Assembly (NCBI GenBank): GCA_921293015.1
Contig: OV121094.1
Coordinates: forward strand, 32,672,054 to 32,736,053
Origin: Phorcus lineatus
Lineage: Eukaryota; Mollusca; Gastropoda; Trochida; Trochidae
DNA length: 64,000 nucleotides
Reading direction: 5' to 3'
Part shown: positions 5,573 through 63,775 of the stretch, one piece after another
Numbering within the stretch: position 1 is the stretch's first letter
How the letters are laid out: each line of letters begins with the position of its first letter
Translations under genes and position numbers: made by a program
The notes under the pieces: generated by a model
The model's database searches: none
What the model was told of the DNA's origin: nothing
The model's input: the letters and a program-made list of their open reading frames with translations, nothing else

Positions 5573-7766
5573 CCAGGAGACCACACGTCCATTGAAGCAG
5601 GGTAGATGCGCTTCGTCATCTATTATTTCTTCTTTGACCACCCTGCAAACAAAAAACAAATTAGACAATATATTCACAAATTTGTGGCAAGAAAATCTAG
5701 ATTATAGTTCAGTATATATAGTTATTTGCAGTATTCAAGGATGTAATTGAATATTGCGTTATGTAGACTATCTGAATGAGAACCTAGACTGCATTATAGG
5801 CTTTTGGTCATGATGCACGACAACAAAAAGTCATGCAGGCTTATTTTTAGGAAGGATATCATAAAAAAAAACATGATAACCAACATTTGATCTTACATTG
5901 GTCATTTCAATAAACCAATATATTGAATGTCTGACATGATAGGGGTCAATTTTATCCATTTTTTTGGTGCCTAAAGCAACTGTTCAAGATAACAAGTTGA
6001 TATCTCAAAAAGGTGTGAAGCCTTGTAGTCTATTATAACTTCGGGTATGCCACAGGTATCTGACTGTGCTGCTAATATCTGCTATGATAAACTCAGAACT
6101 ATGTAATGCTATGTGCATCATATCTAATGGATAAGCATTTCCTTTTTCACTGAAGACATACGCCAAGCCCTATTTTCACAAAGCTCCCCAAGTGCTAAAT
6201 GCATCTCTAACAAAGAGTTATAATGTTTAGTTTCGCTCATCTCAGTGTAAGGGAGCTGTGTGCAAATGGGCCTGTGTCTTCAAAACGCCTTAGCTCTGTC
6301 CAGCACTAGTTGTGAGAGTATGTAGAGGTCATAAGCACCAGGGGGGCTAAGTCAAGGAATTATGGTATAACTATACCTCAGCACCAAGTGATAAATGATA
6401 CTGGTAACTCATCGCCATAACATTTATTTGTGATGAAAGTTAATATTAGGCCGATGTTGCCTTTGTCCGAAATCAGTTTAATAAATTGTTTGAATTCATT
6501 CATCTGCTAAATATCACTACAAATTGTAAACAGCATATTTCCAAATATCAAGATACGTTTATGCTAAAGCTCTTGGTATCTCAATAAATAAGAGGCAGAT
6601 TGACCTTATGTGTAATTAATTAGATATCCCAGACATCACATCGTAAAACCAATGACTTTTATGATACGTCAAAATTTATTGCCTTGATACATACAAAGAG
6701 ACCTACCTGTGCTCTGACATATAACAAGCAATTACATCTTTATTATCTATATAATTCATATCATTAACAGCTTCAATTCAATCTGTAAATGTAGACAAGT
6801 TTATTTTTCTCTGACTCGGTAACTTTCTGCTTGCTTTGTCAAATTATTTCAATATAATGCTCTTGAAGCTATGAATGGATGCAGCTGGTAATGGAAAGTT
6901 TAACATGCACACTGCTGAATGCAGGTTTTGTTGCAGACACGGGACTATAGCCATTAAGACATTGAATCGTTCAACCTATAGAAAACAATAATTTAGGTTG
7001 GTGTGAAATGTAACTGTTTCATAAAATTATATATTCATAGCTGATACCCTTTAAAAAAACTTAGTAATTTGTGACCAAAATATCCATCATAACGCAATGC
7101 AAACATGAAAAAGAATTGTGCTTTTACAAATGTAACCAAGCGAGTTAGGTCTGCATAAGATACACTGAATGCATATGTTTTTAAATGCTTAAGATATATG
7201 CCTTATCATAAAGTATTAAATGAAATGAGCAAGACTAACTCCCAGTCTTTATGATGTGGAGGTTGAAACATCAAGTGCCTGTTATTTTGACAACATAAGC
7301 AGAAATCAAAAAGAAAATAACAATCAGAATCTACACATTAATAAGTCTTAATAATCTAAAAACGAAACATACACCCATTACATTTTGAATGGTGCGTATT
7401 TTGTCTAAATCAAAGCATGGTGCAACGATGAGATTCACATTGATGTAAAAAGTGCTTGCACCTTATGGCGTGTGTTTCGCCATTTTTGTCGTTGCTTCAA
7501 AGACATTTTCAATCAAAATGCATGCATAAAGTAGCAAACATGTATCAAAATACTGCAGCTTTGTGACATCTGCATTAGTTGATTCTGATTGTCCAAATAA
7601 CTTACCCAAAGTCATCGTCCATCGACTTAAAAAAGAACTTGTAGTTCGGGCGGTTGAGAGCATTTTTGAAATCTCCCAAAGTTACACGATCGGCGGGGAC
7701 AGGGAGTTTGATTAGATATGGAGTATCCTCATCGTCAATATGGTAGATGATTTTCGTCTCCCCCAT
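5573..7766 (-). CDS. DVL: Dishevelled (DVL) homolog, 5' part: DIX domain exons 1-2, gene continues off the left edge
   Basis: Dishevelled is the cytoplasmic Wnt-pathway adaptor. Its N-terminal DIX domain polymerises head to tail and recruits Axin. Two coding exons are visible on the minus strand: 7766-7606 (ATG to donor GTAAG) and 5642-5573 (acceptor TTTGCAG, donor GTAAG). Phases agree (2, then 0), giving 77 residues from MGETKIIYH to RVVSW. Family landmarks are [31 protein letters not shown] and VVKEEI. Y17, F33 and V56/K57 align with human DVL2 Y27, F43 and V67/K68, known DIX interface residues (alignment from memory). An in-frame upstream ATG at 7850 would add 28 residues, but homologs start at M(G/A)ETK, so 7766 was chosen. 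The PDZ and DEP exons are absent: 1-5572 reads as a large second intron. The gene is head-to-head with MIB2. Confidence 0.93.
5643..7605 (-). other. Dishevelled intron 1
   Basis: This interval is bounded by donor GTAAG at 7605-7601 and acceptor CAG at 5645-5643 on the minus strand. A decayed hairpin lies near 6165-6285, where AGACATACGCCAAGCCC and GGGCCTGTGTCT face each other as imperfect inverted arms, suggesting an old MITE. Nothing else was recognised. Confidence 0.7.
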
Positions 7767-26246: not shown

Positions 26247-29200
26247 TCACAATGAATTTTTAATAGATTGGCGTATTTCTGAAAAATAAAAACCTGCCTC
26301 TTGAGCCAATGCTTTGGTATAAACTCTTAAGATATAGAAAAGTGTGACAAAATCTGTTGTACTGAAGAATGTATCTGCTAGAGCAAAGGTGAGGGTGGAT
26401 GGTATAAATCCTCGGCCATACTCCACCATCCATGTATCATGTACCCATGATACGGATGTCACCACCCCGGTAGGATGGTACACCACGTCACCTGCAATGA
26501 CAATTTCGAAGAGACAGTTATTCACCAGAGTGTTTTCTGATATCAAATATATGAACGCAAGTTGATAAAAGTTTTTAAAATCTGAGGCTTGCCGAGGATA
26601 TTTTTACTTTTATCAACGAGTGGTGATACATTTGATATCAGAAGACACGAGGGTGAGATTCTATTTATAATCCATAAGCATTTTTCATTTCCATTACGTG
26701 AAAAATTTATATTTCGGAACACTGCATTACTCTGAGACTCTCGGTGCGATGATGTCATAGCACTCTGATGTTGTCATGTTTATAATGTCATAGCGTTGTG
26801 ATGGCATTACTTGATAATGTAAAACAATTGTGATGTCATGAACTTGACTGTAACAAGGCATTGTTCAAAATCTACTGTCAAAACAATATCTCCTAGATAT
26901 CGCTTGATCTTTTTTTTAAATTGGGTTATGCCAACTATGTACCGGTATATGGTATCATTGTATCAAATAGTGATGTGCTGAAAAGAATTATCATTTATGT
27001 CAAAACTTAAAACAAATGACAGGTAAAACCATTTATCTGCGCTGACTTAAGAGAAACATTTATTATTTGTAATTTACAGGCTGTTCTCTCACTATATGTA
27101 TTATTGCTAATTGCTGAAATATTGCCAAAGCGGCGTTAAACAATAACTCACTCACTCACTCACTCTTATATTTACGATGGGATATCAAAAAGTTTCAATT
27201 ATCGCAGACACATATCAAAGGTACAGACTTTTTTTGTTCTCATGTTTTTAAGACTTCTCTAAATAGTCACCATCCAGAGATACAAATTTTTCCCATCGCT
27301 TCTTGACCTTGCGCAGACCGTCTGAATAGAAGACCCCTGATTTAATGGAAAACCCAGCCTCCACCTCTTGAATGATGTCATTGGTGTCCTCAAAACGACG
27401 TCAACGAAGTGGATTTTTCATCTCAGGGAACAAGAAGAAGTCACTTGTTGCAAGATCGGGTGAATGGGGGGATGCGGTAAGATTTCAAAGCCACATCGCC
27501 GTGCCTCCACAGCAGCTGCTTGACAAGTGTGAGCTGGGGCATTGTCAGCTAACAGGCGTACACCTTTGGTGCTCATATCGCGGCGCTTCTGTTTAATGGC
27601 ATCTCGTAACTTGCTCAGCTGGTTGCAGTAATAAGCTCCAGTAATGGTCTGACCCTTAGCTAGATAATCTGTCAAGATGAATCCACAACAATCCCAAAAT
27701 ACAGACACCATAACCTTTCCTGCAGACTTCTTCACCTTGGCCTTTTTGGGAGGTGGTGACGTAGCATGCTTTCACTCTTTGCTCATCTCTTTTGTCTAAG
27801 GATCATATTGATAGACCCAGCATTCATTGATGGTAACAAAATGTTTGAAGAAATCCTCTTCGTCTTGTTCCAGAAGCTCCAATGCATTAGAGTCAGTAAC
27901 AGGGCTCCAGATAATTATTTGGACTCAGGGGTATTTCACTCCTCAAAATGAAAATTGAGGAGTAAAATTACCAAATGAAAAAAACTAGGAGTATTTCAAG
28001 GTCTATCGTTTCAAATCCTCATTCCAAGTAGGCATCTTTTTCGATGTTTGTTGTTGAATATATTATTAACATGTCTAATCTGTAAATAAATGAGTGATTT
28101 CTCTTTGATGCAATATAAACTCGGTAATATTTGTTTTCATACAGCTTGGCATCAAGTTGGCTACAATTTGAGCTGTAAAGATCATACATGTAGAAATGAA
28201 ACTTTGTTTTGACAAGTCACGATCACTCCTGTAATCAAATATCTTACTAGTATTCTGGGAATGTTGTGCGTATCTGTCACTCATGAATTTCATTTTTAAT
28301 GCGTAAATGTGAATTACCAATGCGTATTTTACGCAGATACGCATCTTATCTGGAGCCCTGCAGTAAGCAAGGAACCCAGCGTGCTGACACTTTGGACATA
28401 TGCAACTGGTAATGGAGTATGTTCCATGCACTGCCATAACTCAGACCTGTTTCCTGCATTATCATTTGTAGAGTTACGCGGCAATCTTCTTGAACCAGCG
28501 TCTCAAGCTTCTTGATGACATCCATATCATCAGTAAGTGCATGAGGGGCGTCCCCTTCTTGGCTCATCTGCAAGGGACATGTGGCCTGTTTGGAAATTCC
28601 TTTTCCATCTCACAACAATAATACAGGATGGGCTGTCATTCTCATAAACAGATTTCATCTCATCATGAATTTGACGTGCAGTATAGCCCTTCAAATGTAA
28701 AAATTTAATTACACTGCGAGCCTCAATTTTCTCCATAATAGGGGGTACTGTGCTATTTGGTCAACAGACGTTAAACTGGCTGTTGCGAAAAAGACTTTTG
28801 TTGACCCAGGAATTGGACAAGGATCACTTATGCTACAGTGACCATTTGGTCCGTATTTACCAGTACATTCTTTGTGATAATTGGAACTTTTTTTCCCTCA
28901 TATACTAAAAATTTAGGCACAATAAGATTACATCTCACCTTGTTTAAATATTTGACTCTTCAGCTCGCCCTCTTTCCACTGTCGGAATGTCCCAGTTATG
29001 ATTGTGTCGGAAATGTTTGCCCAGTAACGTCCTGAAAGGAATCAAAATATAAACCACGTAAAAACTGACAGTCTGAAACTTAACAAATTAAACCCTTGAA
29101 TACCACAGAGGTTGGCACATTTAGTTTCAGATCAAGGGGTCAGGGGTTTGAGTTTGGCAACTTTGCAGTATAAACAAAGTTCTACATGCAGTAAAATTTT

Positions 29201-31715
29201 GGTGCAATACTACACTGAATTTCAGTGCAGTATCACCCATGGTTCACTAATTTCAGCCGATGCTTGCTGGTTTCACTGAATGCGGACTTTATCCCTGCAT
29301 TAATACTAGCAGCTGAGATAAAAGCGAAATACTCTTGAAACTAATGAAAGCACTGTTAAACCCCAAATTACCTCACCTATCCATCTTACCGCCTCCTCAG
29401 AATCCCCCCCCCCCCTTCCCAATAAGCGCCACCCCTACTTTCTGCTCTACCTATATCGATAGAAGCTGCTAAACAATAGTGTGGCTAGGAAATGCAGTGA
29501 GTACTTCAAGCTTTACTTGGAACTAGATAACCTTTTCCGAACTTGAATTACTGTTTAACCCCTACTTCTTGAACTATGAGATTCCAATCCTGAAATTATT
29601 GGTACAATCTCTTCCATAGTTCAGGTAAATATTTCATTATGACCCATGTAGAAATATCATCCCTTGGATATACGACAGTATTTTATTATTTTATCGCTAT
29701 TCAATGATAAATGCACAATCCATTAACAATATATCAAGATATATTCAAATTTCATTTGGAATTATAAATTACTTTTGAAAATAGTGTTAATGCCATTAAG
29801 CACAGACATTTATTCGATTATTATCTATAACTATAACCAAACGCTAGTTCACCCTCCAATCTTAAGAAAACAGATGACAGAAATCAGTATATAGAGGTAG
29901 ATGATAAGAATATAATATCTTAAAGGGACAGTAAGTCGGGTCTTTTTTTTGGAAACAAAATGAATAATAACGTTTGTAAATGAAAAAAATATTTCAATTG
30001 CAAAAAAAGAACTCTTTGCTTAAATCTATTCAGGCTTGATTTTAAAATATGACAACATTTTTTTAACATACATATGAAATAAAACCGACGAGCGGAACCT
30101 ACCAGAATGACCGACGGTATCGACGGCGGTCCCGAAGAAGAGGACGTACTCAGTGACGGAAGCGTGGAGTATACACATTGAGCCCATCCACCCCCCTGCA
30201 TTCATGAAGATCCACTGCATGTCACTGTCTGGTAGGATGTGACCTGGGTACTTCCCCCGAAAATCCTGGAGGATTCTGGGAAAGGCGACTTCTGGGTCCT
30301 GCCCTAAAAACAAAGCAATAATCTTGTAAGGATCTAATGCAAAAATTATTTATGATTAATATTAACACGATAAAGAAGATAAGTTTTGGGAACTTCAGAT
30401 TTGCAGTCACAGCGTTGCAAATCGATTGTGTATTTTTCAGGGCTCTAGATTAGATGCGTATCTGTGTATAATACGCACGGATATTTAAAATATAAGCATT
30501 AAAAATGAAATCAATGAGTGACAGATACGCACAACTTTCCAAGAGTACGAGTCAGATGTTGTTTACATGAGTGATCGTGACTTGTGAAAACAAAGTTTCA
30601 TTTCTTTATTTCTGATCTTTACCACTCAAATTGTAGCCAAGTTAATGCCAACCTGTATGTAAATAAAGATTACCGAGTTTATAAATTATTTCATAAATGA
30701 GAAATCACCCATTCATTTACAGATTAAAAGATGCTAACTTGGAATAAGGACCTGAATACGATAAACCTTGAAATACTCCTAGTTTTTTTTCATTTGGTAA
30801 TTTTACTCCTCAATATTTATTTAGAGGAGTAAAATACCCCTGAGTCCAAATAATTATCTGGAGCCCTGTTTTCGCATTGTCGCTTGTTAAGAAGTTCTGA
30901 TTGTCCTAACTTCATGTTACATCAAATGTTTTTATTTTTCATTGCCTAACTTTTGATTGGATTCAAAACTATCGCAATAAATATTCTAATAGTTGGTCCC
31001 AAGGGGCTATCGATATGTCGATAGTACTATGACAATTGTAAAAGAACTAATGGTATTGAATAGTCAAATCAATAAAGCCTTTTTAGATTGTTTGCAATCT
31101 ATTAGAAACCAGTTAAAAGGGAATTAGCTCTGTATATCTGTCATGGTTATTTTTTTACTTGCAGGCGCTGGGGGATTCTTTGATAATATTGTTAGAGTTG
31201 AAGTTTGCCTCACAAAATTGTTTGAATGCTTCCACTATCATTACCAATGATGCACTATATTTCTTTTCCTCAAAGACATATAAGAAATCATGCATTACAG
31301 AAGGAAAATGTATTTTACCGAAAACAGGTACATAAAATTCAAATTTGATTCATAAAAATCATCTTTAAAATCTGGTACATACCATGATTTTGCGATTAAC
31401 TTTATTTTTGCATTTGTGTAACACATCGTTTCGTGGCTATAAGTTAAAACCTATTTGTTTCACAAAGTGACATTATTAAGGTTATATCATCAATTATTAA
31501 ATGGCCGATCAGTGATCAGCCGATTGTGATAGCGCCCCAGTGAGCGTGTGATAAACATTTATTTTAACCTTTAACTTACCTGCATATTTCTTAGTTATCT
31601 TGGCAACATCTTCGTGGGTAAATAAATATGATTTCTTCTCCAGCCAATACTGGATACAAAATATTATTATTATTATTATAAAAGTCCATTTCGCACATTT
31701 TCGAAAAAATGCCAT
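26247..31715 (-). CDS. SIGMAR1: Sigma non-opioid intracellular receptor 1 (ERG2-like), complete, four exons
   Basis: The sigma-1 receptor is an ER membrane chaperone at mitochondria-associated membranes, with a cupin-like fold related to fungal ERG2 sterol isomerase. Exons on the minus strand are 31715-31580, 30303-30103, 29031-28939 and 26491-26247. All introns are phase 1, and the total is 675 nt (224 residues; the human protein has 223). Residues about 11-27 form one N-terminal transmembrane helix ([15 protein letters not shown]). Conserved blocks are [45 protein letters not shown] and [11 protein letters not shown]121 and E167 align with the human ligand-site acids D126 and E172. Intron 3 carries a mariner with a nested MITE and intron 1 a second MITE copy; neither disturbs the exons. 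Confidence 0.96.
27105..27167 (+). repeat. SINE 3' end with (CTCA)n tail
   Basis: It contains GCTGAAATATTGCC, then AAGCGGCGTTAAAC, then five CTCA units. It looks like the 3' end of a gastropod-type SINE, truncated at its 5' end, in SIGMAR1 intron 3. Confidence 0.65.
27248..28736 (-). mobile_element. Dead mariner transposase gene, interrupted by a MITE
   Basis: Minus-strand coding remnants follow the mariner order. There is an N-terminal helix-turn-helix part from the ATG at 28736 ([16 protein letters not shown], then RWKRNFQTG), a second helical part ([20 protein letters not shown]), SARWVP, then catalytic blocks [34 protein letters not shown] and LLADNAPAH, and C-terminal [15 protein letters not shown] before a stop at 27248. 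Mariners have a D,D34D triad; the first acid reads N in TINECW. There are frameshifts near 28560 and 27440, in-frame stops, and a MITE insertion at 27900-28360. Terminal inverted repeats were not located. It sits in SIGMAR1 intron 3, co-oriented with the host gene. Confidence 0.92.
27900..28360. mobile_element. MITE inserted in the mariner (copy 1)
   Basis: This 461-bp element has perfect 15-bp inverted ends (CAGGGCTCCAGATAA). It is flanked by the 6-bp direct duplication CAGTAA (27894-27899 and 28361-28366). It has an internal palindromic GAGGAGT motif near its left end and TGCGTATTTTACGCA near its right end, and no transposase. Superfamily is uncertain: the CAGGG terminus recalls hAT, but the duplication is 6 rather than 8 bp. 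Confidence 0.88.
29107..29395 (+). repeat. Degraded SINE (same family as 46781-47105)
   Basis: It aligns by eye with the full copy over its length: a decayed tRNA-like head, GGTGCAATACTACACTGA, TTTCAGCCGATGC, TAATACTAGCAGCTGAGAT, ACTCTTGAAA, and an end at TTAAACCCCAAATTACCTC. It lies in SIGMAR1 intron 2. Confidence 0.7.
30438..30868. mobile_element. MITE copy 2, inverted relative to copy 1, in SIGMAR1 intron 1
   Basis: This 431-bp element has ends CAGGGCTCTAG and TTATCTGGAGCCCTG. It matches the reverse complement of the 27900-28360 element throughout (AATACGCACGG, GAGTGACAGATACGCAC, CTGAGTCCAAATAATTATC). Target duplication is obscured by flanking T runs. Confidence 0.85.
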
Positions 31716-32033
31716 TGCTCAGCTGCGATCATACTGGTTTTCTGACAGGTGTGCGACAACTCTGTAGCGTGAAAGACTAACAGACGGAATCGAGTCATGG
31801 AACAAAGGGACAGAACTGTTGCTGCAGTCACTTGCATTAAAATTGTAACAGATTTTACGACGTTATTTTTTGTATTGTATTGTACTGACTATGTTTATTG
31901 TAAATGACTGTCGAATTTGAAGACTATAACGTGTTTTATTCCGCCAGTGCTCGGCAACTTTGTCTGCACTAAGAGAACTGTTCTAGTAATTAAGGTTCGC
32001 TTGTTCCAGCAGACGCTCGCAGGTTTTACTTAA

Positions 32034-34278
32034 AGATAATATATCCACATAGGGGGTACGATTAGCGGAAATACTTCATAACATAGTTAAGAATAAATAT
32101 CAACAACTATTTAGGTTCACATCCACCTGAAAATAGCAGTAAAAACGTGTTTTATAAACACTTCCGGAAAACAGACGCCAAACGTTTTATTAGCCAATCA
32201 GGTGCTAGTGGCGTTGTGACGACATAGACAGGACTCGTTAACGACTGGCTAATCTGTGTAATTGTCTACACTATAGATTCCAGCGAACGTGAACGTATAT
32301 ATTTTCACTGTTTGTTCTTACAAAAAGCCCCTAAGTCACCATAGCTATTAATATCAATACATCGACATATTCTGTTTGACATTAATTAACTTGTTATTTG
32401 TTTGGGTTGTTAATCTCCGAAAATGCCGATCGAGTGAACCCAAACTGATATCTGCTGCCATTGTGACTGTTTTTTGTTTGAACATCTAGACAAATCGACT
32501 ATCCCCCTGTGTAGTAGATTGACCATTGTATATGTAGAATATTTGTTAGTACTTTGTGCCATTTTATAGTGTCAACTCAATATCGTAACTCTGTGTTTCT
32601 GCTTTGCATGACTGTAACAATGAGATTTCGCTTTTGATAGACTGCCTCTCGGCAACTTCCGGAACAGGATACGACGGTTCCGAACAGCTGTTTTGGGGCT
32701 TATTAACCAGTAGATAATGAAGATCAAATTTTTTGTAATTGTACCTCTTGATTCGCGATTTGCAATCTTCATAAAAACTAAGACTTAGTACTTATGTATT
32801 TTTCATAGTAGGGATACAGATTATTGTTGTTTTGTGTGAGTTAATGGTCAGTGTTTGAGATAAAGAGTGTGGTACTAATCTAGAGTGACGTAGGCCAATA
32901 TTGTCAATAATAACACAACATTTATTGTTGATTGTGATTTAAGTTAAAGCCTGCTTGGAAATGTAATGTAAATGTGAAATTCTGTTTCAGTTTTAAGTAT
33001 TTCAACCAAATGAAAATATAAACGCTGAAAAGCATATTATTTCAATTTCCTTCGGTACTTTAGTACCCTTATTTTACCAGAGAGAGGTTTTTAGTTACCT
33101 AACAACACTTTTCACACCAGACAATATAGTCATAAAGTTATTACCTAACAGTCTACATGAAATGCCGCACACCTGTACATTATGGCAATTAAGCAATAAA
33201 CTTAATGACCTCAGCACCTGGCACATTTCTAAAAGGTAATACACAAGACACTGATTAGTTATCTAACTTTATCCTCACACATGATCAACAGCCTTTATTG
33301 AAACTTGATGAAGGTAATTAGGTTTGTCAATACACGTTACACATGAAATTATATTAACAAATCTGTATTTCTAAATATATTATTTCATACTTCAATGTTT
33401 ATCAATATCAAATAGGTTATAAATTATTAAATTTTTAAAATGATTATTTAGTTCAACTCGATTAAATTTTCAACCCTTTATGTAAACAAATACTAAAAAT
33501 GTAAACAACTGTTGGGGTTTGAATTAATAATTTCTGCGACTAATCCTAAGAGACATAAATTTATACTGCAGATAAAAACTCAGCATTCGTCTGCAAATTC
33601 ATCAACTAAAGTCAACTCCCCAAAAGTTTCATGATTATCTACCCCACCTCCCTATGGATAGAATTTTGAATTAGCCTATCTTTCAAATTCCTTACCCTCT
33701 TTCGTTCCCTCTTCTCAAAGTATTCCGTCCGTTTTCTCTTCCGATATTGTTGATTGTCATATCTCGCTGGGCAGACGGGTAGCGGGCCTATTTTCATCTT
33801 TATGTTTATTAACTGTTGGTACGGCATTTTTGACGAGTCTTTTCCTTTGAGGGAGGTCCAAAGTCCGTTTTGAAATCGTAGGAAAGATCATAACAGTCCT
33901 CTATGAAATGATCGGAGCAGATGACAGACCTGTCATTGGGACTCCACTTCGCTCTTTTCTGACTAACAAACTTTGTCCAATTCGCGAATTGGACAGGATC
34001 CTTCGTAAACTGATGCAGTTGAATGTCTCCTGATTTCTTATTAGTACAGTTGAGCGAGTCCTGTCTATTACGTCACATCAGCCGAAGGAGAGCTCAGGCC
34101 ACTCTAGGGACTTTTTTAATTGGGCTTTCGAGGTTGCCAATTTCTACGCACTTTGAACCGTTATATCTTTTTAATTAAAGGACGCATCGAAACTCTGTTT
34201 GGTGTTTTATTTACTTGAATGTATTGTCTTTATGAAAATGGGGATTGAAGTCGGATACAAAACTGGGATATAATATCT
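32034..34278 (-). mobile_element. TTAA-flanked DNA transposon with THAP segment, copy 1 of a direct tandem
   Basis: The 2245-bp element lies between TTAA at 32030-32033 and TTAA at 34279-34282. The first 13 bp inside each TTAA are inverted repeats with one mismatch (AGATAATATATCC and AGATATTATATCC). A further imperfect inverted pair is TAGACAGGACTCG near 32226 and its complement near 34055. The TTAA target is used by piggyBac and Kolobok elements; the AG start suits Kolobok better, and I recall THAP fingers in some Kolobok proteins. The minus strand holds a broken THAP segment (33809-34072) and a reading near 32566-32700 ending in ELTL that could be a later exon. No catalytic domain was recognised. 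Confidence 0.85.
33809..34072 (-). pseudogene. THAP zinc-finger segment, frameshifted (copy 1)
   Basis: This minus-strand open frame contains FANWTKFVSQKRAKW, then SVICSDHFIEDC, the conserved W and the CxxH half of the C2CH zinc site of a THAP DNA-binding domain. Its own frame ends at a stop at 33809. The expected C-terminal landmark AVPT appears in the next frame (33814-33825), preceded by LPQRKRL, so a one-base shift separates them. One N-terminal zinc Cys is present (CTNKK); its partner is not seen. No start codon is in frame. It could be an exon of a transposase, a THAP passenger gene, or a decayed remnant. Confidence 0.8.
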
Positions 34279-34282
34279 TTAA

Positions 34283-36527
34283 AGATAATATATCCACATA
34301 GGGGGTACGATTAGCGGAAATACTTCATAACATAGTTAAGAATAAATATCAACAACTATTTAGGTTCACATCCACCTGAAAATAGCAGTAAAAACGTGTT
34401 TTATAAACACTTCCGGAAAACAGACGCCAAACGTTTTATTAGCCAATCAGGTGCTAGTGGCGTTGTGACGACATAGACAGGACTCGTTAACGACTGGCTA
34501 ATCTGTGTAATTGTCTACACTATAGATTCCAGCGAACGTGAACGTATATATTTTCACTGTTTGTTCTTACAAAAAGCCCCTAAGTCACCATAGCTATTAA
34601 TATCAATACATCGACATATTCTGTTTGACATTAATTAACTTGTTATTTGTTTGGGTTGTTAATCTCCGAAAATGCCGATCGAGTGAACCCAAACTGATAT
34701 CTGCTGCCATTGTGACTGTTTTTTGTTTGAACATCTAGACAAATCGACTATCCCCCTGTGTAGTAGATTGACCATTGTATATGTAGAATATTTGTTAGTA
34801 CTTTGTGCCATTTTATAGTGTCAACTCAATATCGTAACTCTGTGTTTCTGCTTTGCATGACTGTAACAATGAGATTTCGCTTTTGATAGACTGCCTCTCG
34901 GCAACTTCCGGAACAGGATACGACGGTTCCGAACAGCTGTTTTGGGGCTTATTAACCAGTAGATAATGAAGATCAAATTTTTTGTAATTGTACCTCTTGA
35001 TTCGCGATTTGCAATCTTCATAAAAACTAAGACTTAGTACTTATGTATTTTTCATAGTAGGGATACAGATTATTGTTGTTTTGTGTGAGTTAATGGTCAG
35101 TGTTTGAGATAAAGAGTGTGGTACTAATCTAGAGTGACGTAGGCCAATATTGTCAATAATAACACAACATTTATTGTTGATTGTGATTTAAGTTAAAGCC
35201 TGCTTGGAAATGTAATGTAAATGTGAAATTCTGTTTCAGTTTTAAGTATTTCAACCAAATGAAAATATAAACGCTGAAAAGCATATTATTTCAATTTCCT
35301 TCGGTACTTTAGTACCCTTATTTTACCAGAGAGAGGTTTTTAGTTACCTAACAACACTTTTCACACCAGACAATATAGTCATAAAGTTATTACCTAACAG
35401 TCTACATGAAATGCCGCACACCTGTACATTATGGCAATTAAGCAATAAACTTAATGACCTCAGCACCTGGCACATTTCTAAAAGGTAATACACAAGACAC
35501 TGATTAGTTATCTAACTTTATCCTCACACATGATCAACAGCCTTTATTGAAACTTGATGAAGGTAATTAGGTTTGTCAATACACGTTACACATGAAATTA
35601 TATTAACAAATCTGTATTTCTAAATATATTATTTCATACTTCAATGTTTATCAATATCAAATAGGTTATAAATTATTAAATTTTTAAAATGATTATTTAG
35701 TTCAACTCGATTAAATTTTCAACCCTTTATGTAAACAAATACTAAAAATGTAAACAACTGTTGGGGTTTGAATTAATAATTTCTGCGACTAATCCTAAGA
35801 GACATAAATTTATACTGCAGATAAAAACTCAGCATTCGTCTGCAAATTCATCAACTAAAGTCAACTCCCCAAAAGTTTCATGATTATCTACCCCACCTCC
35901 CTATGGATAGAATTTTGAATTAGCCTATCTTTCAAATTCCTTACCCTCTTTCGTTCCCTCTTCTCAAAGTATTCCGTCCGTTTTCTCTTCCGATATTGTT
36001 GATTGTCATATCTCGCTGGGCAGACGGGTAGCGGGCCTATTTTCATCTTTATGTTTATTAACTGTTGGTACGGCATTTTTGACGAGTCTTTTCCTTTGAG
36101 GGAGGTCCAAAGTCCGTTTTGAAATCGTAGGAAAGATCATAACAGTCCTCTATGAAATGATCGGAGCAGATGACAGACCTGTCATTGGGACTCCACTTCG
36201 CTCTTTTCTGACTAACAAACTTTGTCCAATTCGCGAATTGGACAGGATCCTTCGTAAACTGATGCAGTTGAATGTCTCCTGATTTCTTATTAGTACAGTT
36301 GAGCGAGTCCTGTCTATTACGTCACATCAGCCGAAGGAGAGCTCAGGCCACTCTAGGGACTTTTTTAATTGGGCTTTCGAGGTTGCCAATTTCTACGCAC
36401 TTTGAACCGTTATATCTTTTTAATTAAAGGACGCATCGAAACTCTGTTTGGTGTTTTATTTACTTGAATGTATTGTCTTTATGAAAATGGGGATTGAAGT
36501 CGGATACAAAACTGGGATATAATATCT
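34283..36527 (-). mobile_element. TTAA-flanked THAP element, copy 2 of the direct tandem
   Basis: A second 2245-bp copy follows immediately, in the same orientation, offset exactly 2249 bp. The TTAA at 34279-34282 is shared and a third TTAA lies at 36528-36531. Every line compared was identical to copy 1, including the two small minus-strand ORFs (34821-35021 and 35888-36076). Confidence 0.85.
36058..36321 (-). pseudogene. THAP zinc-finger segment, frameshifted (copy 2)
   Basis: This is the same broken THAP segment as at 33809-34072, with the same frame change before the AVPT landmark. The lesion therefore predates the duplication or was copied with it. Confidence 0.78.
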
Positions 36528-36533
36528 TTAAAA

Positions 36534-39466: not shown

Positions 39467-39589
39467 AAAAGCTTCACTACTCAGCCACCGAAACTTCGAG
39501 GGGGACCATAGAGACATTCAAGGATAGCCAGGGCGTTGTGATTAAGAGAGTAAGCGTATTGGTCACTAAGTCGAATATATATATATGTC

Positions 39590-39595
39590 TTTATT
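39590..39595 (-). terminator. Poly(A) signal of lectin gene A
   Basis: AATAAA on the minus strand lies 26 bp past the stop. It is conserved at the same place in gene B (50978-50983). Confidence 0.55.
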
Positions 39596-39620
39596 CTGAA
39601 GAACATTGGGAGTTCTTGAT

Positions 39621-42600
39621 TCAAGGATTCGCCGGTCGCGTTCTCATTTCAGCAAACATGAGAGAGTAGTAATATCCTCGCCATAGGTTCCAGACCACGC
39701 CCCCTGCGTGCCCCGTGTAGTTATACTTCCCGTTCAGATGAGAGGAGTGGCAAGCTCCAAACCACCAGCCGCCGAAGTACCGGGCGGCACAACTAATGGT
39801 TTCATGGCTATCGTTGTCCATATCGTATGTACTGAAGTTTCTGCCATTGCCGTGTGAGAAAGAATTACCTGCAAAAAGTTGAAAGGGGTTAACCGTACAA
39901 TCTCTTTTAAATCGAATCGAATCGCATGACTCACAGGGGTCAAGTCAGGTCACTGTTCCATTCGAATCAATCAGCAACAAGTACGAGTTTGTTATCCAAG
40001 GGGGCCTCTTATTATTATAATGTAGAAGGTGCATAGTAAAAGAAAAGATCACTTGACAAGGCCCCTGACGCAGATCACACCAGAAACGTTGATCCTATTT
40101 CAATGAGATTGTTTAGTTGAGGCGTTGCTCAATTATGTGTATGGATGGGAACGTCAAGAAATTGACCTGATATAAACAAACCTAGATCGAAACAATTTGA
40201 GACCTGGTACAAGACAGTAAGATGTCAACCCAAGTGAAATATAGACGTGCCATTAGTTATGCGACGTGTTCATTGGATGCTTTATAACAGAGCTGGAAAA
40301 TATTTTCTTCAAAATGTGCTTTCTCCATAAAATATATCATTACCATCACCGGAGAACTGAACTAATCGACAAGATTTTAGGAAGAATTATGTGTTTACAT
40401 TTAAAAGGGGCAGTAACACTCTATGAAGATGGATTTCATGAAAACCCATGTAAATGTTTCCAATTTCAAGTCGATGTTTTAAAAGAAGGTGAATATGAGG
40501 AAAACTCTGCCAAAGGATTTTAGTTTAATCTGATTATTGAAATAAACAGGAAGAAAAGTAACATATATATTCTCACCTCAGTAAACAACATTATTTATGT
40601 TAATTTCTCTAAAAGTCCTCGTATTAGAACAGAGGATTTAAAGACTTGGGAAAATGTCATGGTAAAATAATATCCAACAACATATACTGATTCACCTAAG
40701 TGAATTGTCAAGACTCACCACATTCTCCAGAATACCCGCTCACGGACAAGGAGAAAAAGTCGTCTTCGTCTGACAGAGCGAACTGGGAATAATTCGACAC
40801 ACACGTGTTTCCTTCAAAGTCCTTCAAAATTATTTGCAACTCGTACGTCCTCTGAGACGTCAATCGGTGAATGTTGTCATTGCCTGAAAACGAAAATATA
40901 ACATATTACGATGATCTCCTTGATAACGCCAATATGGGTCGAAATCAAAGGGGCAATAGGGATTAATATTTCTGTTGAATGGGGGCTTCTCCTGTCAATG
41001 CTATGAGCTCTATAAATCGTCACTTTATTCTAGGACAGGAGATTTTGTAAGGAATTGATGGAAGTTCACGATTTGACGTGTTTTGATGATACTTTAAGGA
41101 TCCACTGAGTTGTTGGAGTCATATATGCCAAACTTAATCAATGGTGTCATTTGATAGCGAAGTTTCCAGTGGTGATATAAAATCAAAACATCTTAACTTT
41201 TCATGTCCAAAAGACATACATAAGACATATACTGGTTTTCCATGAAAATTTAAAAACAGCCTTATAAATGCCCAGAGGTGTATATATCACGTCCAATACA
41301 CATGGATACTAGTTATATAACCTAACAAACGCTATGAACTCCTAAACTGCCCTCCTGGCTGTTTTAGATAAGTCTCCAAAATTACTCGCGAGCCACTGTC
41401 CGGTATTCGATCATAATTGCGACGTGCTACCTTCATATTGTCACTGCAAAAAAAACAATAAGCTTTAAAATGTGTCTTTTAGCTAACAGTCGATACTTCG
41501 CGACCAAATGACACCATTTATTAAGTTTGGCATATATGACTCCAACAACTCACGGAGTGGCTCTTTAAGGATTTTGGTAATCGTTCTGAACGATCTACTT
41601 TTTAAAATAATTGTCATCATCGAAAGAAAAGCATGAGCCCAATCTCCTCCGCTTAACTTATTGGTTGAACATATATTCTATACGTCGTAACAATATACTA
41701 AGACGAATGTCGATAGTTACGCCATTATGACAGGACGTTTGACAAACCGCTAAATATTTAAAAACGGGTCCAGGACGTGAAAATTCAATAGGCGTCATTA
41801 GAGACCATTAGATTGAGATGAAGAATTGGGATTGCATAATGGGCATCTGCTTTTTCATAAAACAGTATACTTGTTTACCCAGTCTGATTGTTTGACAACA
41901 ATGGACAGATCACAAGCACGGGACACATCGATACAGGTCATATACAATACATAACAAGGTAATCCACATAGACAAATCAAGCTCCGATATATGTGAAGGG
42001 AGGTCGCATCTGGAACGAGGCTTTATACCTCGATCTGGGCACTTCCGTTTTACGATGACGCAATAAAACTCGCTTTTTACTTATTGAAGTAATGAAGCTC
42101 TCATAAAGCAGGTGACGTACACGTAATTCAACTTTTAAATTGGAAGTTGGTCATTTATGAATACGTTACGAGTGATACTTACCGATGTCACTTTATGAGT
42201 ATGTTTATAACAGCACATATATCGGAGCTTGATATGCCTACGTGAATAGCCTTGTTATATATTGTATATGACCTGTATCGATGTATCCCGTGCTTGTGGG
42301 ACAGATGTAGACATGTTGTAGGATAGTTCATATGGCATCGTGTGAAAGCATTATCTTTCGCTTGGAACAATAAAATAATAAATTAAATATCGATTAATTG
42401 AAGGTTTGAATTGTATGTATGACTTTAATATGTTTAATCGGTAACTTATTTATCGGTCGATTTCAGAAATTTAAAGTTAATTAACTGTAAAATTCGAATA
42501 TTTTTTTAGAATCTCGAAAGTTGCCATTGGACATTTCAGTCGATCTTTAAGTGCACTCTGAATCTATGTTGTATAAAGCTGTATTGACTAAATATCCTTT

Positions 42601-45600
42601 AAAAGGATCAATAAAATTGGTAATGATTGGCCGTAGTTTTGTTTAAATCTCAGGCTTATTCTCAACATTGGGCTTTGAGTGTATCTTTCTCCCAACCCAA
42701 ATGTCATATTTCATTAATTTCCTGTTCGAAGCTAATGTTAAAATAATTATTGTAATTTTTATTAACAATTGAAAGACAAATTCAAGGAAAATATGAACAC
42801 AAGGATAAAGCAGCATGACATATTTCTTTATATGTCTACTTAAAATCGTCCACTATTTCGTATATTTATTGTTGTAAATAGTTGAAATGAACTATTAGAT
42901 TTTTTTTCAGTGTTTCTATCTATAAAAAAAAATCTTGAACAATATTCGAAATAGTTTCTTTACTTTAAATTCTTTAAACAAAGTATAAAAGCGTTATTGC
43001 GATTCTTTTTCTTTTCCATTAGCTTCCTTGTCTTAAACATTTTAAAAATGTTAATTTTTTTAATTTGAATGTAGGATGTTAAAGGTAATCTTGATATTCT
43101 GACACGGAATAAGAAAACTCCGTTTCGCAGCACATCGACGAATAAAATCTTTCAATTTAATCAAGTCAGAATCTTAAAGTTGAACATATTATAAGGGTAA
43201 TCTAACTGCTTACCTAGCCAAAACTCGTTTTGAAGGTCTCCAAATCCCTCTTTGTATTCGTTCCAGTTTCTTGTGAAGTTAACTGACCCGTCTGTCCGTC
43301 TTTGGAACACCTGAGAAAAACACGAAAGCTTGCAGACATAATAGGTAGAAAACTGTAGTCATTGACTTTGTACAGCAGTTTCGAATAATTTTCAATTGAG
43401 AATTGGCTATATTTGTAACCATTTACTAAGAAAATTATCATTTCGGGAATTCAACGATACGGAATTACAAAACAGTGAGAAATGACAATTTTTTTATTCA
43501 CATATGTATTTTCTAATAATATCCCTTTAAGAAATGGTTTTGATAAATAGATTTATTTCTAATAATATCAATACTCAATTAAAGAGTTATGAAACGATAT
43601 TTGATTGGAAATAAATAATTTTTTTTATTCAAGTTGCATGTTTGCAATGGGATTTTGAAAGAACCGTGAATTACAAAGCTGACCCGAGTAGTTCCGGTGG
43701 GAAGAGAATGGGCCTCTCGTAAAAACCATAAGATAAACGTATCTAGGGACTCACCAGCCAGTTCCCTCCGTAAGTAGAGAGATCACAGTAGACAGAGACG
43801 GAGCCGTTCCCATCAGCCGGATCCACAGTGTAAACTCCGTCGTCGATACCAGGGACGTCAGAACAATCTGGAGGAAAAAGATGCATCCAATGAAAATTGG
43901 GAGAGATCGTATTACGAATTGAGCGAGTTTATGCCCTGAGCTCAAATACAAAAAAGACAAAACGTTTAAAGCAAATAGTAATTTAATAGTGATATCGAAA
44001 CATTTCAACTATACTTCCGAACTTCCCACCGTTGGTGCACCAAAGACTTTCAGAGACGCATCATACAATGCATGGCCTATACTTTCTCTAGCCCCAATGA
44101 TTTGTTAAGACTAACCTGGCAGCATTTCCCTAACTAGGCTGCTGTGACGCAATGCGATAGTCCAATGCGAAGTCATTTGCGAACTCAACTAGTCGCCGCT
44201 GAGGGCGCTGCACATGAAACACGAATTTTTGAGGGCTGGCAGCAAGGTTTCAAATAGCCGATGATAGAGACAGGTGTAAATTAAAGTCAACGTCAAATGT
44301 CAGAGACGTTGTGTTCTGAATTTGGGAGTCAGAATAGCAACAAAAATGTCTCTTTTTGTCTTAAATTACGTCTAATACTGCAGTGGATGAACGATACGCA
44401 TATTCTCTGAGAAAAAAAATCTTATTTGGAAGGTAGCAATATAGTTCAATCTTAATACCAAATCACCAAGCGCTACACTCCTAGCGTAGTCTGTGAGAGT
44501 TGTCCGGAAACTTTTTGGCCTGACCATGAAAATTGAAAAAAAGGTTGTTTTGGACTTTTTTCGACATAAACACCCCTAAAACTGCACTCTCTTTTTCTAA
44601 CATCTTCAACTCATCTGAAAACCAGTAATTGTCAGGCCAACTTGCCCGATTGACGCAATGGCGTTCTCGAATGTCTCATGGTTATGGTCACGGAGTTCTG
44701 TTTTCGGTCAAGAGACGAGTTTGAAAATAGGCAGGGTGGGGAAGAGCCCTGAATCCTGAATCTTGAATCCTGAATCCTGGGCGATGTACACAGGGACATT
44801 GAACTGAAGCAGTCAGCCACCTTTGAGCAGTTTACCTATCTGTTTCTCTTTGATCTTTTCTAGGAAAAACAGCTGTTAACTTGTTTGATATAAGAAATTA
44901 ATTGTACCACCCTCGCTAAACAGTGATGAGCAACAGTGAAAAATCTAATGGTGAAACGCTTGACTTGTATTATTGCATCTAGAACAGCGTTGATGTTTTC
45001 CTCCTGGTGACATCATATGGTCGACCAGGGTGTGGCTCTTTTTCGATGCTTACTCTACTCCTAATAAACATTGTTTAACACAGCTGTGCGAAGGAGTAAC
45101 ATTTATGACTTATTGTGACTTATCTTCAAAAAACAAATACTCACAGCTCAACATTTTGTCCTTTTGAAATAATCATTAATATGCATTGCGTTTTGGACAT
45201 TTGTTTTGAATCTTTACGGATCCCCTCGTAGCAACCCACCAAGGTCTCTCTTGTCATTAAACTGCAACATCAAAACTTTTTCATCCACACATCAAACCTC
45301 ACCTCTAATACTGCAGTAGACGTAATGTTTCCAGCCAGTCTCAGAGACAAAGTTCTGAGAAGCAGAACCCGAGTGTCCCTGACAGAGGAGGGAGTCCGTG
45401 TTGAAGAAGAAGGACCTGCATCTCTGGTCTCTGTAGCAGTCGGCAGCGCATCCCTCAACTCTCTCACTGTCGTTCCTCGTCCACAACAGGTGCTCGGAAC
45501 TCACACTATCGGTCAGGTTTAGGCAAAAGAAGTCTCTAGTTACAATATGATAGTCTCCACGGATAGAATTCCAAGCACAAACAGATAAGACCATCGCCAA

Positions 45601-45615
45601 GGTTTTCGGCAACAT
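39621..45615 (-). CDS. PAN/apple plus fibrinogen C-terminal domain secreted protein, gene A
   Basis: This is a predicted secreted fibrinogen-related lectin. Minus-strand exons are 45615-45303, 43867-43755, 43310-43214, 40883-40719 and 39868-39621: 936 nt, 311 residues, all phases closing. Residues 1-20 ([20 protein letters not shown]) form a signal peptide. About 22-105 is a six-cysteine PAN/apple-like domain. About 106-311 is the fibrinogen domain: [41 protein letters not shown], a DMDNDSH calcium-site-like motif, CHSSHLNG, and a tryptophan-rich end. Fibrinogen-related proteins commonly bind acetylated glycans in innate immunity; that role here is inference. The ATG was chosen because the signal peptide and gene B agree on it. 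It is a tandem paralog of 51009-61132. Confidence 0.94.
41094..41568. mobile_element. TTAA-flanked hairpin MITE in gene A intron 3
   Basis: It begins and ends with TTAA and has about 65 bp of inverted ends sharing GAGTTGTTGGAGTCATATAT and GCCAAACTTAAT. It is absent at the matching position of gene B, so it inserted after, or was lost from one copy since, the gene duplication. Confidence 0.8.
41905..42305. repeat. Long inverted repeat (arms ~90 bp, loop ~215 bp)
   Basis: The left arm (41905-41995) contains CACAAGCACGGGACACATCG and GATACAGGTCATATACAATA. The right arm (42213-42305) carries their near-complement, including AGCTCCGATATATGTG inverted. It lies in gene A intron 3 and is probably a foldback-type MITE. 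Confidence 0.78.
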
Positions 45616-45732
45616 TTTACCGGAAGATGATTCTGAAAAGGTTCTTTTCACAAAAACAAGGTTATATTTCCAGACAAAGTGTTCAATCACTAGGTTTTGT
45701 TCCCTTATGGAAAATCTTGCTGAAAGTAATAA

Positions 45733-45744
45733 CTCTTTTATGAG
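45733..45744 (-). promoter_or_regulatory. TATA-like box upstream of gene A
   Basis: CTCATAAAAGAG on the minus strand lies about 120 bp before the ATG. It is conserved at 61233-61244 upstream of gene B. This is motif evidence only. Confidence 0.3.
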
Positions 45745-46110
45745 AAGATTATTAACCTAAGGTTATCATCACAAAGTAGAATTCCTTTTTGTTCTTACAG
45801 TTCACTTTCAGTACATTGTATCAGTAGGAGTACATATTTACATTTTGGACACAAATGTGCCTCGTTCACTTAACGAAAACGGTAATTCGGGTGTATTAAT
45901 TCAGGATTCTTCTTCTGTGTTATCCAGTCCAAAATCTCACGAATACTGTGCTGAAAATCTTAACTCTGACACGATTTGGTCAAATAGTCATTGGCCATCC
46001 GAATGTCCTTGACGATAGTTCTGTAGGTATATTCATCAAACAAAGTTATCTTTGATTCTTTAGTTTTATATCCGGCGTCTCAGTTCATATTTTGAGTTGT
46101 TTACATAATC

Positions 46111-46382
46111 CGGTAAAGCTCGACTCGACTAGAACATGGTTTGCTTTGTTTTCAATGGTAAATGTGCAACCTTCTTTTATTACATGTAACTAACTCCTTC
46201 AAATGGTTGTTCCACAAGTCAATATCTCACTGAAGACCTTGCGAACATGATCCTATATCTCTTCGGTTCCTCTATGTACAAAGCGTTACCCTTCGCCACA
46301 AATGATAAAGAGGGTTTACATCCAGTTTGTCACTCTGTACTTCATGCATTACACCTATACCCGGTAAAACTCGACTCGACTA
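46111..46382. promoter_or_regulatory. Repeated 21-bp motif upstream of gene A (two copies)
   Basis: CGGTAAAGCTCGACTCGACT occurs at 46111 and nearly identically at 46362 (AAAC for AAGC). The same pair, similarly spaced, lies upstream of gene B at 61628 and about 61868. Function is unknown. Confidence 0.5.
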
Positions 46383-46780
46383 GATGGCGGTGTGCAGCAG
46401 ACAAGAGATTCATCATGAAGTATTGAATATTGATAATTCACCGCTTTTTTCGCCGTTGTCTATTGACTAGAAATCTTAATATGTAGATTTAAATCTTTTG
46501 TTCAATGGTACGATAATCAATGTCGTATGTGTATTTTGTATTTAACCCTTGCATATCTATATCTGTGAGACGTATCTACATTTGATATGGTTGATTGAAA
46601 TGGGTTTCAATCTTTAAAAAGTATCAGAGAGTTTTTTTAAGTGAGTTGGTTCCATGGTACATGTAATTTCGGCTTCAGGACACATATAAGAATGTTATTC
46701 GATTTTCATTGAACAATAATGCTTCTCATATATTTGGCGTGTGGCGTCCGCCGTGACATGATTACTCTAATCTCCTTTTG

Positions 46781-50900: not shown

Positions 50901-50977
50901 ATTATTCAACCCTCATGATTTCATCCACTGGTGATTAAATGAATAAACTTATGGTCACTTGGACGAATATATATATC

Positions 50978-50983
50978 TTTATT
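50978..50983 (-). terminator. Poly(A) signal of lectin gene B
   Basis: AATAAA on the minus strand lies 26 bp past the gene B stop, as in gene A. Confidence 0.55.
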
Positions 50984-51008
50984 CTGAAGAACATTGAGAG
51001 TTCTTGAT

Positions 51009-61132
<10,124 letters not shown>

Positions 61133-62706
61133 TTTACCGGAAGATGGTTCTGAAAAGGTTCTTATCACAAAACCATGGTTATATTTCCAGACAAAGTCTT
61201 TTCAATTATGGAAAATCTTGCTGAAAGTAATAAATCTTTTATGAGAGGATTATTATCCTAAGGTTATCATCACAAAGTAGAATTCCTTTTTGTTCTTACA
61301 GTTCACTTTCAGTACATTGTATCAGTAGGAAAACATATTTACAAATGTGCCTCGTTCACTTAACGAAAACGGTCATTTAGATATATTTGCTCAGGATTCA
61401 CTTCAGTGTAATCCAGTTGAGAACCTTCATGAAATCTCACAAATACTGTGCAGAAAATCTTCACTCTGACACGATTTGGTCAAATAGTCATTGTCAATCC
61501 AATTGTACTTGACGATAGTTTGGTGCTCCTTAAAGATCTCACAATGTATTCCTTAAATACCATTCTCATGAAACCTTTAGTTTTATATTCGGCTTTTCAG
61601 TTCATATTTTGAGTTGTTTACATACTCCGGTAAAGCTCGACTCGACTATAACATGATGTGCTTTGTTTTCAATGAGAGGCGAGCAACCCTCTTTCATTAT
61701 ATTAGTAACTTCTTCAAATGATTGTTCCACACGTCGATATCTCACTGAAGACCTTACGAACCTGATCCAATATATATTTGTCTCCTATATAGCGTTATCC
61801 CGCAACACGAATCCAACTAGCTACACATCCAGTGTAGAGTCTATATTTCGTGTATGACAATTCTACCTTGTAAAACTCGACTGGACCAGATGGCAATAGA
61901 TTCGTCATAAAATACCGAGTATTGATAATTTCCTGATATTTGCCATGGTTTATCGACTTCTGAAATCTAAATATCTTGATGTAAATTCTTTAATCAATGG
62001 TACGATAATCAATGTCGTCAGTGTATTTTGTTGTTAACCCTTGCATATCTTTTTAGATTCACATGTGGGAATGATAAGGTTGCTTAATGTAAAAAGTGTC
62101 TAATTGGATACGGTTAAGAGATATGGATTTCAATCTTTTAAAAGACTCAAAGATTCTTAGCAGAAGAATATGTGCAATGTTACGCGTCATATCTGCTTCA
62201 GCACTCATGTATAGGCGTTGTTCGGTTTTCATTGCACACTTATGCTTATCATCTATTTGACATACGAGATGGTTACGTTAGATGAATATGATCTTAATTG
62301 TCGAATAAAATAAAGTTTAAAAGTTTAAAGATTGATTTTCCTGTTTCATGTTCCATTAAGGGTAAAACGACCACATATTAAAAAGATCATACATGTAATA
62401 AAATGATTTGGTAATTCATTTTTTGAATGATTAGTAAACACTGTTTATTCGTAATTGTTAATTGGCGGTTTTACCCTGTCAATATAATAAATGCACAAGA
62501 GTTCTCTGTTAGCGGGGCCCATGAAATGGAGATAATCTCACGCCATTAGTCTAGTTCAAATATGGCTTCTAGTTTCTACTTGTAACGTCCTCTGGTGGGA
62601 ACAACTATCTTCACAATATTATGTAGAATGTCCACGATTTGTTATAATTCAAGTGGAAATTGTATTTCCAAAACTCGTCAACAGACTACCGAATGCAAAA
62701 CCTTCT
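61133..62706. other. Upstream region of gene B
   Basis: Up to about 62060 this is recognisably paralogous to 45616-46560 upstream of gene A, including AAGGTTATCATCACAAAG, the TATA-like box and the 21-bp motif pair. From there to the satellite it is AT-rich with nothing recognised. Confidence 0.6.
61628..61888. promoter_or_regulatory. Repeated 21-bp motif upstream of gene B (two copies)
   Basis: CGGTAAAGCTCGACTCGACT occurs at 61628 and a degraded version (GTAAAACTCGACTGGACCAG) near 61870. They match the pair upstream of gene A at 46111 and 46362. Confidence 0.45.
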
Positions 62707-63775
62707 ACCAGGTGTGTCAGTGTTCAGTACCAGGTGTGTCAGAGTTCAGTACCAGGTGTGTCAGTGTTCAGTACCAGGTGTGTCAGTGTTCAGTACCAGG
62801 GGGTGTCAGAGTTTAGTACAATGTGTGTCAGAGTTCAGTACCAGGTGTGTCAGAGTTCAGTACCAGGTGTGTCAGAGTTCAGTACCAGGTGTGTCAGAGT
62901 TCAGTTCCAGGTGTGTCAGAGTTAAGTACCAGGGGGTGTCAGAGTTCAGTATCAAGTGTGTCAGTGTTCAGTACATGGTGTGTCAGAGTTAAGTACCAGG
63001 GGGTGTCAGAGTTCAGTATCAAGTGTGTCAGTGTTCAGTACATGGTGTGTCAGAGTTCAGTACCAGGTGTGTCAGAGTTCAGTACCAGGTGTGTCAGAGT
63101 TCAGTACCAGGTGTTTCAGAGTTCAGTACATGGTGTGTCAGAGTTCAGTACCAGGTGTGTCAGTGTTCAGTACCAGGTGTGTCAGAGTTCAGTACCAGGT
63201 GTGTCTGTGTTCAGTACCAGGTGTGTCAGAGTTCAGTACCAGGTGTGTCAGTGTTCAGTACCAGGTGTGTCAGTGTTCAGTACCAGGGGGTGTCAGAGTT
63301 TAGTACAATGTGTGTCAGAGTTCAGTACCAGGTGTGTCAGAGTTCAGTACCAGGTGTGTCAGAGTTCAGTACCAGGTGTGTCAGAGTTCAGTTCCAGGTG
63401 TGTCAGAGTTAAGTACCAGGGGGTGTCAGAGTTCAGTATCAAGTGTGTCAGTGTTCAGTACATGGTGTGTCAGAGTTAAGTACCAGGGGGTGTCAGAGTT
63501 CAGTATCAAGTGTGTCAGTGTTCAGTACATGGTGTGTCAGAGTTCAGTACCAGGTGTGTCAGAGTTCAGTACCAGGTGTGTCAGAGTTCAGTACCAGGTG
63601 TTTCAGAGTTCAGTACATGGTGTGTCAGAGTTCAGTACCAGGTGTGTCAGTGTTCAGTACCAGGTGTGTCAGAGTTCAGTACCAGGTGTGTCTGTGTTCA
63701 GTACCAGGTGTGTCAGAGTTCAGTACCAGGTGTGTCAGAGTTCAGTACCAGGTGTGTCAGAGTTCAGTACCAGGA
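62707..63775 (+). repeat. 22-bp satellite with 487-bp higher-order repeat
   Basis: About 48 units of GTGTGTCAGAGTTCAGTACC plus AG, with variants CAGTGTT, TACATGG, ATCAAG and GGGGGTG. The variant order repeats with an exact offset of 487 bp (TTTAGTACAATG at 62812 and 63299), showing a block duplication. Since 22 is not a multiple of three, all plus-strand frames read the same cysteine-rich repeat; none is a gene. Confidence 0.96.

Follow-up and report, generated by a model that had tools for sequence, protein, structure and literature searches.

The 64,000-nt stretch of Phorcus lineatus DNA analyzed here (the window; C29:32672054-32736053) contains two copies of one transposable element, hereafter E, lying head to tail at positions 32030-36531 in the layout TTAA-E-TTAA-E-TTAA. 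The repeated unit has a period of 2,249 bp, and the units at 32030-34278 and 34279-36527 showed 0 differences over 2,249 positions. These values agreed exactly with the coordinates, spacing, and absence of differences given in an earlier interpretation made from the letters of the window alone (the sequence-only reading), and the TTAA at 34279-34282 is common to both copies, as had been claimed there. At an offset of 2,249, the run of identity comprised 2,254 bases and ended at the bounding TTAA and one chance A; thus, the flanks of the pair are not duplicated. The ends of E form a 17-nt inverted repeat with 1 mismatch, the TTAA being counted in, and the longest open reading frame (ORF) of E, with ATG, GTG, or TTG as the start, consists of 66 amino acid residues. 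The left and right copies, designated W1 and W2, are a clear, very young head-to-tail pair of a gene-less element with one common TTAA. Head-to-tail copies with one common target-site copy, the arrangement that characterizes double-insertion dimers of transposable elements (TEs), were thus found at this locus. The features of the pair are listed below by window position.

32030..34282, plus strand: copy W1 with both flanking TTAAs, 2,245 bp between the TTAAs; read as a non-autonomous element of THAP-type Kolobok
34279..36531, plus strand: copy W2 with both flanking TTAAs, identical to W1
32030..32033, no strand: left TTAA target-site copy
34279..34282, no strand: middle TTAA common to W1 and W2, within the 30-bp junction 34266-34295
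36528..36531, no strand: right TTAA target-site copy
32034..32046, plus strand: left terminal inverted repeat of W1, AGATAATATATCC; W2 equivalent at 34283-34295
34266..34278, minus strand: right terminal inverted repeat of W1, AGATATTATATCC on the minus strand; W2 equivalent at 36515-36527
32215..32237, plus strand: left subterminal inverted repeat, 23 nt, 91% complementary to 34055-34077
34055..34077, minus strand: right subterminal inverted repeat
33812..34060, minus strand: THAP-domain relic of a transposase gene in W1 (PF05485, profile positions 5-62 of 87)
33639..33827, minus strand: 62-amino-acid ORF resembling, by eye, the downstream part of the THAP ORFs of related copies, in another frame

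The THAP relic matched PF05485 with a score of 4.2e-10 and is repeated in W2 at +2249. Its start is missing near 34052, where most related copies carry about 98-100 bp of extra sequence. The 62-amino-acid ORF at 33639-33827 alone gave no THAP match. The 23-nt subterminal inverted repeat is possibly a transposase site. A 22-nt palindrome, TGTCCAATTCGCGAATTGGACA, was rejected as a signal; it falls within the remnant of the THAP coding sequence and appears to be incidental. An Rfam scan of the window at the gathering threshold yielded no match.

To place E in its genome, the window's own assembly (957.8 Mb, 74 contigs) was searched. The perfect 17-bp end TTAAAGATWWTATATCC had 967 exact matches (500 + 467), compared with 1 for the backwards control, a count far above chance. 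In the DNA search with E as the query, the 40 candidates scored out of 1,046 yielded 88 matching pieces; with C5a, a copy described below, as the query, 40 of the 1,033 candidates were scored. The copy numbers given for the W and C5 subfamilies are therefore lower bounds. Among the scored matches, the close relatives of the window copies were the C29 pair itself and one single full copy, C17:25501050-25503302, which was 99.87% identical to E with 3 differences. The other matches running from E position 1 to about 2023 were 92-96% identical, and most of these carried the extra stretch of about 98-100 bp near E 2023, with L030 lacking it.

Forty single-copy loci were examined, and TTAA was present on both sides at 37 of the 39 with both ends recovered. 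This supports the sequence-only view of E as a TTAA-bounded transposon, and TTAA-bounded copies do occur elsewhere. Nine of the 40 loci had been picked by a TTAA-containing pattern; without these, the count was 28/30 (31 examined). The two failures, L051 and L056, had one altered end each, and the flanks differed at every TTAA-bounded single-copy locus. A target of TA or of 3 bp would fit one locus but was ruled out by 37 of the 39 loci. The base preceding TTAA was a pyrimidine in 29/37 loci; a purine following it was weakly seen (21/37). We further compared 46 copies, a sample chosen by similarity and position, in which near-identical copies occurred at unlinked loci (L052/L053 and L049/L050) and show that the family has dispersed recently.

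Several family members are rearranged. At C1:47922500-47930500 (L016), two members lie in opposite orientations, one abutting E 1937 inside the other; the remaining right part of the interrupted member was not found within the 8-kb locus, and the arrangement is either a nested insertion or a rearrangement. Around C1:35.02 and 35.06 Mb (L020/L021 and L028), a longer family member is present in two copies about 96-98% alike and about 33 kb apart. They have in common an extra ORF-containing segment, similarity between their flanks was not found, and one of them also contains an apparent non-LTR retrotransposon, as judged by eye.

E is most plausibly a non-autonomous element derived from a THAP-type Kolobok transposon rather than from piggyBac, an assignment based on the target, the termini, and the THAP domain and not on a transposase. 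E starts with 5′-AG and finishes with CT-3′, so that the window copies follow the 5′-RR..YY-3′ rule, and AG..CT was also seen in the ends inspected in the relatives except for the decayed left end of L051. The P element makes an 8-bp target duplication, whereas E duplicates the 4-bp TTAA. A TTAA target combined with 5′-RR..YY-3′ termini sets Kolobok apart from piggyBac (PMC9587614, cited here and below, like the other papers, from the part available to us), and Kolobok transposases usually have a THAP domain (PMC6004289), such as that left as a relic in the window. piggyBac, the usual TTAA superfamily, was an improbable alternative for E. The TTAA target fits it, and the transposase core that could settle the class was not found; however, piggyBac ends carry a CC[C/T]T motif (PMC2872659), which is absent from the E ends AGATAATATATCC and AGATATTATATCC, and with the THAP relic also present, membership in piggyBac was rejected. 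Checking the ends and relic domain of a TTAA element taken to be piggyBac-like can thus reveal it as Kolobok-like.

ORFs of at least 130 amino acids were listed for loci L001-L053; five were scanned with Pfam and the rest were judged by eye. PF05485 was recognized in all four of the relatives' ORFs scanned for it, which had been chosen beforehand as THAP-like, with a best value of 2.2e-16. In a genome search for THAP ORFs, 150 of the 2,166 candidates were scored; many of these had uninterrupted frames of about 200 codons, and none of those scored showed a DDE core. The THAP ORFs of about 200 codons, many of them stop-free, occur in many family members, in which the transposase core was likewise not seen. 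They may correspond to a first exon joined to others by splicing, or may encode a DNA-binding protein that the family has kept.

Abutting pairs in all orientations were sought by a whole-genome junction scan allowing up to 3 mismatches, which by design misses decayed junctions. The scan matched five places, of which three were true shared-TTAA pairs: the window pair (C29), C16:14753830, and C5:44040669. All three are head to tail with a single TTAA between the copies. The other two were not dimers; L012 had no similarity to E, and L013 contained a single end only. Other tandem copies (the C16 and C5 dimers) as well as single copies, which the sequence-only reading had left to a genome search, thus do exist. 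That reading had also called shared-TTAA tandems unusual, and they are rare, with three true junctions found against 967 perfect ends in the family; double-insertion dimers have, however, already been described (PMC7214746 and PMC12628747). Its suggestion that the pair could mobilize as a composite gained no support. No further dimer was found in the scan, although a cut-and-paste move would have left none to find.

The kinship of the partners differed among the three dimers. The C16 partners were 89-90% identical in two long aligned pieces, differing by about 6% when substitutions alone were counted, and each had another sampled copy as its nearest relative. Diverged as they are, and each closer to other copies, they demonstrate, as judged from their sequences, a separate second insertion of a diverged family member.

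The C5 partners, C5a and C5b, belong to one small subfamily with further copies at C5:35.04 Mb and C19:47.6 Mb among the scored candidates. The copy nearest to C5b was that at 35.04 Mb, with 7/2513 differences. The possibility that C5a and C5b are an exclusive sister pair (14/2171 differences, against 6% to the rest of the sample) was discarded when the C5a search found other close relatives. No exclusive site joins C5a with C5b, two join C5b with the 35.04-Mb copy, and one joins C5a with the 35.04-Mb copy. The C5 dimer is therefore ambiguous: a sibling may have inserted beside C5a, or C5b may be a duplicate that later gave the 35.04-Mb copy. Of the 20 private differences of C5a, 13 lie within one short block (C5a 528-545; about 2863-2880 of the locus L015), beside a 32-bp extra stretch that matches its own neighborhood on the opposite strand, like a local template switch. 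C5b has an extra segment of its own of about 300-330 bp (C5b 1570-1890; L015 about 6450-6775) adjoining an AT microsatellite.

W1 and W2 have in common derived bases at E222 and E313 that were absent from the C17 copy and the 43 other copies compared, one of the 43 being gapped at E222, and neither has a private difference. By these bases, they are exclusive sisters in the sample and the youngest of the three dimers.

The window dimer and the C5 dimer each pair members of subfamilies in which at least 3-4 copies were found, and chance would hardly pick partners of the same subfamily in two of three dimers. With about 8.3 million random TTAA sites, a number extrapolated from the window density, and the family size not fixed, chance adjacency predicts 0.03 dimers for 484 elements, 0.12 for 1,000, and 1.1 for 3,000. 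Because this expectation hinges on family size, the excess of dimers (three found) is suggestive only.

The explanation that we favor, with some confidence, is that E is Kolobok-derived and that the tandem pair arose when a sister copy inserted into a TTAA bordering its twin. E has retained the ends and a disrupted THAP exon, and its transposase would have to be supplied in trans. The inserting sister would most simply have been freed from the other chromatid during replication. Each insertion would duplicate TTAA, so that two insertions in the same orientation, the second into a flanking TTAA, would give exactly the structure TTAA-E-TTAA-E-TTAA. We infer a Kolobok transposase as the mover, a sister chromatid as the source, and insertion rather than duplication as the event at this locus. 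Since two of the three dimers came from small subfamilies, the added copy most simply came from nearby or from the sister chromatid, by whichever route the two were joined. McGurk and Barbash reportedly described in 2018 Drosophila TE dimers in which a second copy had entered the target site duplicated by the first.

Several observations weigh against this explanation. All three dimers are head to tail, whereas random insertion predicts half (3/3 by chance, 0.125), and the window locus itself holds nothing that separates a second insertion from a duplication. The C5 tree was rejected as proof of separate insertion; with two sites against one, its support was weak (0.36), and the same tree would result if C5b, once formed by tandem duplication, had later moved to 35.04 Mb. 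An autonomous element with E ends was not found among the ORFs of L001-L053 and L054, mostly judged by eye; L054, one further THAP copy that was fetched, showed no transposase core by eye. The sole transposase domain recognized between E-type ends was that of a MULE, with FLYWCH, in L019. There, the E sequence is interrupted by the MULE with a 9-base overlap (E 1127-1135), and MULEs make a 9-bp target duplication; the MULE is thus read as a nested insertion in E.

The serious rival is a one-step tandem duplication at the TTAA ends of E, which we regard as possible but less probable than insertion. The right end of E and the left end on the sister chromatid would be cut or broken and joined via TTAA, or replication would slip between TTAAs, and the product would always consist of identical head-to-tail copies with a single TTAA between them. 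The exclusive sisterhood of W1 and W2 with 0 differences, the uniform orientation of the three junctions, and the C5 tree are all compatible with this route. In addition, piggyBac transposase is able to act on ends that lie on two molecules (PMC3952818), Ac/Ds alternative transposition yields tandem direct duplications (PMC3744419), and replication slippage has been invoked for tandem coral miniature elements (PMC2872659). On the other hand, the diverged C16 partners need a second insertion, so that insertion is demonstrated in this genome and duplication is not, and a duplication without transposase would have merely 4 bp of homology to use. The sequence-only reading had left the origin among insertion into the TTAA created by the twin, tandem amplification, and duplication by the assembly; the C16 dimer bears out insertion into a neighbor's TTAA within the family, and for the window pair the first two are not separable.

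Duplication by the assembly, in which the animal would have one copy or more than two, is very improbable. The 0 differences in 2,249 bp would be expected from it, but the flanks are not duplicated, the repeat stops exactly at TTAA, the E-TTAA-E junction should derive from reads, the assembly contains two further junctions between non-identical copies, and the pair lies in a 45.7-Mb contig, the window having no N. A circle or concatemer of excised E joined via TTAA, with the circle recombining with a resident E or a dimer inserting whole, is also improbable. Such a route would produce exactly the structure of the window pair, and circle models have been considered for the multimers of KolobokP (PMC9587614, section 15); however, no other W-type E-TTAA-E junction was found in the scan or among the scored candidates. 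A further, unlikely reading is that the ends of the E family are preferred landing sites for their own siblings. In its favor, both partners come from a small subfamily in two of the three dimers, whereas chance would draw them from the whole family, and a pyrimidine before TTAA is favored, a base that the right end of E (..CT|TTAA) supplies. If true, self-targeted ends would seed tandem arrays, and later satellites, from a cut-and-paste element.

The window pair adds a good example to a known class of tandem insertions and is not a new phenomenon. Tandem TE dimers formed by double insertion at one site have been described for Drosophila (PMC7214746 and PMC12628747); they resemble the E pair in that tandem copies are explained by a second insertion into a duplicated target site, and differ in that E represents a TTAA-targeting Kolobok family from outside Drosophila, in which partner kinship was compared at three junctions. 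KolobokP, which forms tandem multimers described in molluscs (PMC9587614), is, like E, a Kolobok with tandem copies. It has, however, long terminal direct repeats of 450 or 660 bp enclosing an internal region and no strong target preference (PMC9587614), whereas no such repeats occur inside E and its target is TTAA. Xenopus XKol and the T2-MITEs have, as E does, a TTAA target, AG termini, THAP, and non-autonomous progeny (PMC6004289), but E has a broken THAP exon only, a DDE core was not seen, and the comparison made here is one of features. The coral CMITE arrays are also TTAA elements in tandem; these are about 100 bp long with piggyBac-type ends, at least one array is gapped between units, and replication slippage is favored for them (PMC2872659). 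We came across no account of a THAP-Kolobok family with shared-TTAA dimers in the literature surveyed, which was covered in part. The general phenomenon being already described, the gain is modest. The pair nevertheless captures cleanly how a dispersed DNA transposon could begin to turn into a tandem repeat, and one genome offers three dimers of differing divergence.

Elsewhere in the window, ORFs matched ankyrin, ERG2/Sigma1-receptor, and PAN domains and a mariner transposase fragment, a content in keeping with animal DNA. The regions 39538-46558 and 50931-62050 form a direct-order duplication of about 7-11 kb with 81-88% identity in pieces. A PAN-domain ORF at 45292-45756 (minus strand) and a similar ORF at 60809-61201 (minus strand) lie inside it, and it is probably an old tandem gene duplication. 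A 22-bp minisatellite at 62706-63774 is organized in a 487-bp higher-order unit (2.2 copies, 99%). The mariner transposase relic lies at 27418-27771 on the minus strand (PF01359, 2.5e-20), and beside it, inverted repeats of about 460 bp at 27898-28360 and 30438-30870, with 84-92% identity, enclose about 2 kb.

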